From NCBI GenBank assembly GCA_029011315.1, contig JAQXLA010000017.1:1-64000 (forward strand): a stretch of 64,000 nt of DNA. The letters are read 5' to 3'. Below the pieces are notes generated by a model. It saw only the letters and a program-made list of their open reading frames with translations, searched no databases and was not told the DNA's origin. The DNA is from Desulfovibrionaceae bacterium. Its GTDB lineage: Bacteria > Desulfobacterota > Desulfovibrionia > Desulfovibrionales > Desulfovibrionaceae. Shown here one piece after another: positions 3-1,064 of the stretch (position 1 is the stretch's first letter; each line of letters begins with the position of its first letter). Made by a program: the position numbers and the translations under genes.

Positions 3-908
3 GTGCTGAACTTCAACCGTTTGGGGTTGAAAAAGCTGATCGCCACCTGCTATGCAGGCTCCTGCATTGCCAATCGGCAGCTTTCCTTCTTTGATATCGC
101 AGGAACCGTGAAGGAAGGAAGGAAGGAAGGAAGGAAGGAAGAGTCCCGGAACATTCCGTATAAAGCCGTCGTCACGACTGTCTACGACACGACCGGAGAC
201 GGCAGCGTGGATATGCTCGACGTGGCCGAACTCTTCCGCTCCGGAGAAAATTCCCTCACGGAGCTGAGGGAAAACGGAGATTTCCGTTCCGATGAGTGCT
301 TAGCATTGTTGGATGAAGCCGATATCGTCGTTACCAATCCCCCCTTTTCCCTCTTTCGGGAATACGTCGCAACGCTGATTGAACATGAAAAGAAATTCAT
401 CATTATCGGCAATCAGAATGCTGTTACATACAAGGAAATATTCCCGTTGTTGAGAGATAATAAAATGTGGCTGGGTTCAACAATGCCAAAAGAATTTCTT
501 ACCCCTGACCTTCCGGAAGACAGAAAAAATGTCTCTGTTCGGGAAGATGGAAGCCATATTGCCAAATTTGGCAATATCTGCTGGTTCACCAATCTCGATT
601 TCAAAAAGCGTCATGAAGAAATGATTCTGTTCAAGCGGTACAGTCCTGAGAATTATCCGAAATACGACAACTACGACGCGATCAATGTCGACAACACAGC
701 CGATATCCCCTGCGATTACGACGGCGTGATGGGCGTGCCCATTACCTTTCTGAACAAGTACAGTCCCGATCAGTTTGAAATTGTAGGATGCTCTGAAAGC
801 GAAGGAAAAGGGTTTTCCGGAGATCTGTGGGACAAATCGAGTGGCGTAGCTCAACCTGTGGTCAAAGAACGACGAAAATACAAGCGTTTATTTATTAAAA
901 TAGTATAA
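3..908 (+). CDS. EcoRI-type adenine-specific DNA methyltransferase, 5' truncated, phase-variable candidate
   Basis: This is the C-terminal ~300 residues of a DNA adenine (N6) methyltransferase of the EcoRI-methylase family. The frame is open at the window edge: position 3 is a GTG inside a conserved family segment (LGLKKLIATCY at residues 7-17), so the true start lies upstream. The catalytic motif NPPF is at residues 112-115. The family blocks GNICWFTNLD and KYDNYDAINVD follow. A run of eight GAAG units (110-141) encodes a KEGR-rich loop between the conserved blocks, so a change of one unit shifts the frame. The S-adenosylmethionine motif would be upstream. No cognate endonuclease is seen on the right side. 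Family assignment is firm. The target sequence cannot be told from this. Confidence 0.9.
   Translation: MLNFNRLGLKKLIATCYAGSCIANRQLSFFDIAGTVKEGRKEGRKEESRNIPYKAVVTTVYDTTGDGSVDMLDVAELFRSGENSLTELRENGDFRSDECLALLDEADIVVTNPPFSLFREYVATLIEHEKKFIIIGNQNAVTYKEIFPLLRDNKMWLGSTMPKEFLTPDLPEDRKNVSVREDGSHIAKFGNICWFTNLDFKKRHEEMILFKRYSPENYPKYDNYDAINVDNTADIPCDYDGVMGVPITFLNKYSPDQFEIVGCSESEGKGFSGDLWDKSSGVAQPVVKERRKYKRLFIKIV
110..141 (+). repeat. Tetranucleotide microsatellite, 8 x GAAG, inside a methyltransferase gene
   Basis: Eight perfect tandem GAAG units lie in the open frame of the methyltransferase. The present count joins the conserved upstream and downstream blocks in one frame (ON). Gain of one unit would give TAA at 161-163. 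Loss of one unit would give TGA at 265-267. Both stops precede the catalytic NPPF codons (336-347). Repeats of this kind in methyltransferase genes drive phase variation in several host-adapted bacteria; here it is inferred. Confidence 0.95.
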
Positions 909-1064
909 TTAGGTATTGAAATACGCCCGGATTCTGATCATGCGCAAGCATAATCCGACGTAATGCCGGCATGCGTGGTTGGGGGGGCGTATTCTTTTGC
1001 ATCCCGGCCGGTTTTGCTGTAACAACACTGACATGTCAGCATGATCCATGCAAAGGGAGAATTT

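Follow-up and report, generated by a model that had tools for sequence, protein, structure and literature searches.

A coding GAAG repeat as a predicted ON/OFF switch in one of two solitary EcoRI-type adenine methyltransferases of a Desulfovibrionaceae bacterium

Introduction

Switching of methyltransferases by repeats has been described chiefly in pathogens and for enzymes of Type I, IIG and III. The stretch of DNA analysed here (hereafter the window; 64,000 nucleotides from a Desulfovibrionaceae bacterium) opens within a gene of a different type, an EcoRI-type methyltransferase that contains a run of tandem GAAG units, and raises the question of whether slippage in this run turns the enzyme ON and OFF. 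An initial annotation of the window had proposed such a switch. The proposal is supported at the level of sequence, including by a second copy of the gene in the same genome that carries nine units rather than eight in an otherwise identical stretch of approximately 318 nt. The window gene is thus likely one of two solitary EcoRI-type adenine methyltransferases that are switched ON and OFF through slippage of a coding GAAG repeat.

The GAAG tract and the gene that carries it

The perfect (GAAG)8 tract, its eight units located exactly by the initial annotation at 110–141, is the sole tetranucleotide run of at least four units in the 64-kb window; in sequence simulated under a dinucleotide model (20 runs of 64 kb each), the longest such run was three units. 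The tract is held in an open frame at 3–908, which matches the Pfam family PF13651 (EcoRI_methylase) over profile positions 54–343 with an E-value of 2.6e-106. At 356 bits, against a curated cut-off of 26.4, and with both the NPPF motif and the conserved core present, the gene can be assigned to this family, as had been suggested from its translation. The features that bear on switching are the following, all given in positions of the window:

3–908, plus strand: EcoRI-type adenine methyltransferase, C-terminal 301 of 359 residues (PF13651)
110–141, plus strand: (GAAG)8 repeat, in frame and hence ON, encoding KEGR units; the copy on contig C1 has nine units
161–163, plus strand: TAA stop, giving OFF at 6, 9 or 12 units (computed products)
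265–267, plus strand: TGA stop, giving OFF at 4, 7 or 10 units (computed products)
336–347, plus strand: NPPF catalytic motif, residues 112–115 of the window frame, 3' of both OFF stops (homologue alignment)

Products were computed for the window gene at 4 to 12 GAAG units, and within this range a full-length product is obtained only at 5, 8 and 11 units. These are the ON numbers originally proposed, and the stops reached by adding one unit (TAA) or removing one (TGA) likewise fall exactly where they had been placed, before the NPPF motif, which is invariant across 50 aligned homologues. The tract therefore has the properties of SSR-mediated translational phase variation, in that it is coding, its unit length is not divisible by three and other unit numbers lead to early stops. 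An internal restart in the OFF frame, at a GTG at position 207 of the window (211 in the corresponding C1 sequence, L018), was considered and rejected, as the product would be without the N-terminal region and is unlikely to be active.

The KEGR repeats lie in a loop of approximately 20 residues in the window protein, compared with mostly 9–13 in relatives. An AlphaFold2 model of the protein has a mean pLDDT of 86.9, and its confidence is lowest at residues 21–50, which correspond to the repeat region. Since the repeat sits in a length-tolerant loop, an in-frame change by three units would be least harmful there. A search of PDB structures with the window protein gave no strong match, for which the missing first 58 residues are perhaps partly responsible.

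Two copies in one genome

The window opens contig C17 of a 26-contig genome of 1.485 Mb, for which completeness is estimated at 100% and contamination at 0.08%. A search of this genome with the first 400 bases of the window and with PF13651 located a second 3' part at the start of C1, along with two 5' ends, one at the end of C15 and the other at the start of C2. All four gene pieces sit at contig ends, and an assembly break in sequence common to both copies is why the window begins within the gene. The first 58 residues of the methyltransferase are encoded on one of two contigs:

C15, 105594–105749: 5' end of the gene
C2, 3–158: 5' end of the gene

The last 141 nt of these 5' ends are identical, and the genes that precede them differ, being an unknown gene of 143 aa on C15 and, on C2, a TrmA/RlmD-like RNA methyltransferase named from its sequence rather than by a family search. 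The 3' parts on C17 and C1 are equal over their first 181 nt apart from one repeat unit. The pieces join on a 4-nt overlap, TCGT, to give an unbroken frame reading FFKYF-VLNFNRLGLKK, a junction peptide that is also present in an uninterrupted gene of another genome (G289). An upstream disruption, which the initial annotation had named as one observation that would refute the switch, was not encountered: both 5' ends are intact and in frame, and the joined gene is a continuous frame of 359 aa with eight units. The gene is absent from three congeners, in which gene order is not conserved, and pairing of the 5' with the 3' contigs by synteny failed; an exact search for the flanks in viral contigs gave zero matches, and no strain of the same species came to light. 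Among the other proteins encoded on C1, a siroheme-decarboxylase-like one has PDB 4CZD, Desulfovibrio desulfuricans AhbA/B, as its best match, in keeping with a probable placement in the Desulfovibrionaceae.

With its eight units, the window copy is ON and encodes 359 aa, whereas the C1 copy, with nine, is OFF and meets a TAA approximately 20 nt past the tract. Tract length thus differs between two paralogous copies of one genome, a further property of SSR phase variation, and within the approximately 318 nt of otherwise identical sequence that surround the tract, nothing but the unit number has changed. Eight against nine units in identical flanks is direct sequence evidence that tract length changes over evolution, and we infer that the tract also slips in living cells. 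Beyond position 181, a difference is seen at 28 of 636 core positions and the core dN/dS is 0.20; the two cores are 94.7% identical. No further stop or frameshift was found in the OFF copy, and its intact state and the dN/dS value are easier to reconcile with a gene maintained for use than with a duplicate in decay. PF13651 is present in 6 of 288 genomes of the family to which this genome belongs. The OFF copy is followed, after approximately 4.4 kb, by the gene of a Type ISP restriction-modification enzyme, complete at 1633 aa, on the minus strand of C1 (L018 5347–10248).

Solitary enzymes without a partner nuclease

A DUF262 motif lies at most 2.5 kb downstream of the methyltransferase gene in 70 of the 81 relatives with readable surroundings. 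One such downstream gene was examined and found to combine GmrSD_N and HNH domains and to match the PADLOC model of a Type II restriction enzyme. No DUF262-HNH gene was found beside either copy of the present genome or elsewhere in it, and its sole GmrSD_N gene encodes a different protein of 641 aa on C3. The two copies, neither of which adjoins a nuclease gene, are thus not part of a Type II restriction-modification system of the PF13651 and DUF262-HNH kind. Nor does the window gene have the composition of a Type III mod gene, as PF13651 is its only Pfam family, its motif is NPPF rather than DPPY and the downstream genes encode DUF805 and TrkH proteins. Without a partner nuclease, the OFF state should not expose the cell to a nuclease of its own.

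The variable C-terminal segment

Two further features lie at and behind the 3' end of the window gene:

786–905, plus strand: C-terminal variable segment of the class GCSESEGKGFS..LW, presumed to serve target recognition (family comparison and model strands)
913–963, plus strand: VLKYARILIMRKHNPT, in a frame other than that of the gene, a remnant of a further family tail (sequence comparison)

GVPITF.DKY.P.QFEI and the final Y.RI.IR.K bound a segment whose length and sequence vary strongly across the family, and both of its edges are conserved. These edges are β-strands in the AlphaFold2 model (residues 258–263 and 295–300), so that the fold accommodates the variable segment as an insertion between them. 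The nearest relatives of the segment are L024 for the window copy (66%) and L031 for the C1 copy (77%), and no match was found between the window and C1 segments themselves. From its variability, and by analogy with other methyltransferases, we take the variable segment to be the presumptive main target-recognition part. The two enzymes, which place unrelated C-terminal segments on a shared core, probably methylate different sequences. As the tails that would read the target differ, the repeats may let the cell alter which DNA sites are marked. The remnant VLKYARILIMRKHNPT behind the window gene suggests that the present tail displaced an older one, since such a trace would be expected of that event.

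The proposed mechanism places the GAAG repeat after the N-terminal cofactor region and before the catalytic NPPF motif, where slippage to 5, 8 or 11 units would yield the full enzyme and any other number a stop ahead of NPPF. The assembly would have captured the window copy (8) in the ON state and the C1 copy (9) in the OFF state. Given a shared core and unrelated C-terminal segments, with probably different target sequences, independent switching of both copies would generate up to four methylation states, and may in turn affect gene expression. Eight or nine units is short for a tetranucleotide tract, and the switching rate may therefore be low.

Other repeats in the genome

A repeat census covered approximately 0.7 Mb, about half of the genome, taken as stretches. 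Within it, the only tracts of at least 20 nt with units of 4–5 bases were the two GAAG tracts and three (AAGGA)8 tracts, all three of the latter in hsdS-type genes:

C17, 136,919–136,958: (AAGGA)8 in an hsdS-type gene with Methylase_S domains at C17 136,863–138,231 (L185 12863–14231)
C16, 12,975–13,014: (AAGGA)8 in an hsdS-type gene cut by the contig end
C23, 1,312–1,351: (AAGGA)8 in an hsdS-type gene with Methylase_S domains

These three dispersed genes have their 5' region in common and carry the (AAGGA)8 tract at the 5' end. Read from its first ATG, the gene on C17 is out of frame and hence OFF at its eight units, and would be ON at 6, 9 or 12. A G10 run is situated immediately 5' of this ATG. 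The genome also contains two hsdM-like genes.

Repeat tracts opening the presumed target segment in relatives

Tracts of di- or tetranucleotides are also present at nt 1023–1117, within the variable segment, in five of 121 other distinct genes of the family:

L095 (Anaerococcus degeneri), 2359–2418: AGCA ×15
L069/L178 (Oscillospiraceae RGIG3479), L178 1–24 with the end of L179: GACA/CAGA, split over two contigs
L243, 1661–1692: AG ×16
L244, in a contig of 3.22 Mb, 2057–2118: AG ×31
L227, 1715–1770, minus-strand gene: AG ×28

In all five, each of the three frames past the tract ends in the family motif Y.R...IR/K, and some of these frames hold a whole additional segment that restarts from GVPITF. 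Of 92 points chosen for comparison in genes of this family, 10 codons past QFEI and thus upstream of the tracts, not one showed even two such frames. One-unit changes would therefore yield three different complete proteins at the four loci contained in a single contig each. A late repeat with all frames near full length, as in C-terminal phase variation, is therefore found in these five relatives but not in the window gene, whose two other frames stop before NPPF. The tracts in the relatives look like a means of frame-selected specificity. We lean towards the view that slippage in this family can also pick specificity by frame, as in the five relatives with their three C-termini, and that the present genome holds a dispersed, gated version built from two copies. 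A three-frame specificity switch was not found in the literature, of which mainly freely accessible papers were searched, and a megablast of two of the frame-switch relatives against plasmids gave zero matches. Homologues from a Helicobacter phage, a Campylobacter phage and a Chryseobacterium plasmid also contain frame breaks, which were set aside because they are not located at long repeats.

The AG tract is preceded by a consensus, TTCACA-N5-TTAATGT-(AG)9-31, in L243, L227 and, nearly so, L244. When TTAATGT(AG)9 alone was used as a query, the same consensus was seen in 6 of 6 viral contigs (L249–L254), inside unrelated genes that include DPPY methyltransferase-like and HsdS-like ones and in the same frame (..VNVERER..). 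The element looks like a portable repeat cassette. Separately, a (GGTA)11 tract occurs in genome G086, of the same family as the present genome, upstream of a PF13651 fragment cut by a scaffold problem (L164 928–971). Possible poly-G switches were also noted as a G10 run 67–76 nt upstream of a PF13651 gene of Bifidobacterium (L074) and as a G9 run inside a PF13651 gene, shortly 5' of NPPF (L226 1905–1913).

Alternative explanations

The 9-unit copy might be a broken duplicate, with a repeat that arose as a passive accident and is no longer changing in cells. The tract is short, and loss of one of two redundant copies could be harmless; such decay is nonetheless unlikely, as the OFF copy shows no other lesions and the core retains a dN/dS of 0.20, SSR tracts are found also in the hsdS-type genes of the same genome, and repeats recur in PF13651 relatives. 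It is less likely still that the state changes mainly by recombination between the copies, with the difference in the repeat as a by-product of gene conversion. The arrangement of the copies, whose 5' halves are shared but whose tails and upstream genes are not, would suit such a process, and the contrast between approximately 318 nt of perfect identity surrounding the repeat and 28 differences in the next 636 nt suggests that a recent gene conversion took place, just as the tail remnant at 913–963 suggests an earlier tail replacement. Gene conversion alone, however, would equalise the unit numbers, and eight and nine are seen. No evidence emerged of an inverted arrangement, a recombinase or a difference between the promoters.

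That the two copies are an artefact of assembly, either of a single gene or through wrong unit numbers, is highly improbable. All four pieces do lie at contig ends and are joined only through the 4-nt overlap, but 28 of 636 core positions and the whole C-terminus distinguish the 3' parts from one another, a different gene precedes each 5' end, and the tract and the distinguishing bases fall within less than 90 nt. The estimates of 100% completeness and 0.08% contamination also speak against an artefact. Two solitary methyltransferases under control of a slipping GAAG repeat remain the preferred reading.

Relation to known systems

Repeat-switched Type III mod genes occur as alleles with a common core and different recognition domains, and the window gene resembles them in carrying a coding repeat, of a unit length not divisible by three, 5' of the catalytic motif, by which a frameshift would turn it ON or OFF (PMC6241649, PMC3230613). 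Unlike those genes, it belongs to PF13651, has an NPPF motif and is without a res gene. A further difference is that both alleles, with their different segments, are present at once in one genome, and a regulon under its control, the phasevarion proposed in the initial annotation, is a candidate. One paper, citing REBASE surveys, puts the share with SSRs at 17.4% for Type III mod genes and at about 10% for Type I systems (PMC7394358).

Phase-variable methyltransferases are also described among Type II and IIG enzymes, namely M.HpyAIV of Helicobacter pylori and Cj0031 of Campylobacter jejuni (PMC3230613, PMC4889913). As in these, a non-Type III methyltransferase would be under repeat control here, but M.HpyAIV and Cj0031 belong to other families and have a restriction partner or a fused nuclease, in contrast to the solitary pair of the present genome. 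With the PF13651 and DUF262-HNH pairs, the window gene shares its methyltransferase family and core motifs, although its genome is without a nuclease gene of that type. C-terminal phase variation has been described in Helicobacter canadensis and Neisseria gonorrhoeae (PMC2823697, PMC5320596). The relatives L095, L178, L243, L244 and L227 are similar in that a late repeat would select one of three C-termini; instead of an arbitrary tail, every frame in them encodes a homologous enzyme C-terminus of the family type. The window gene, by comparison, is of the ON/OFF type. The predicted system is thus different from known switched methyltransferases in its enzyme family, its solitary state and its dispersed pair in opposite phase. 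The initial annotation had known of no described EcoRI-type case, and none was found in the literature, searched mainly in freely accessible papers.

Significance

A switched solitary pair of EcoRI-type enzymes with different target segments would add an enzyme family and a lineage to those in which such switching is known. As the near-identical cores come with distinct C-terminal segments and opposite repeat phases, a clean test of the switch is possible. Should the frame-selected C-termini of the relatives indeed alter specificity, a single tract could toggle three methylomes with no OFF state, and would do so by slippage alone, without recombination.
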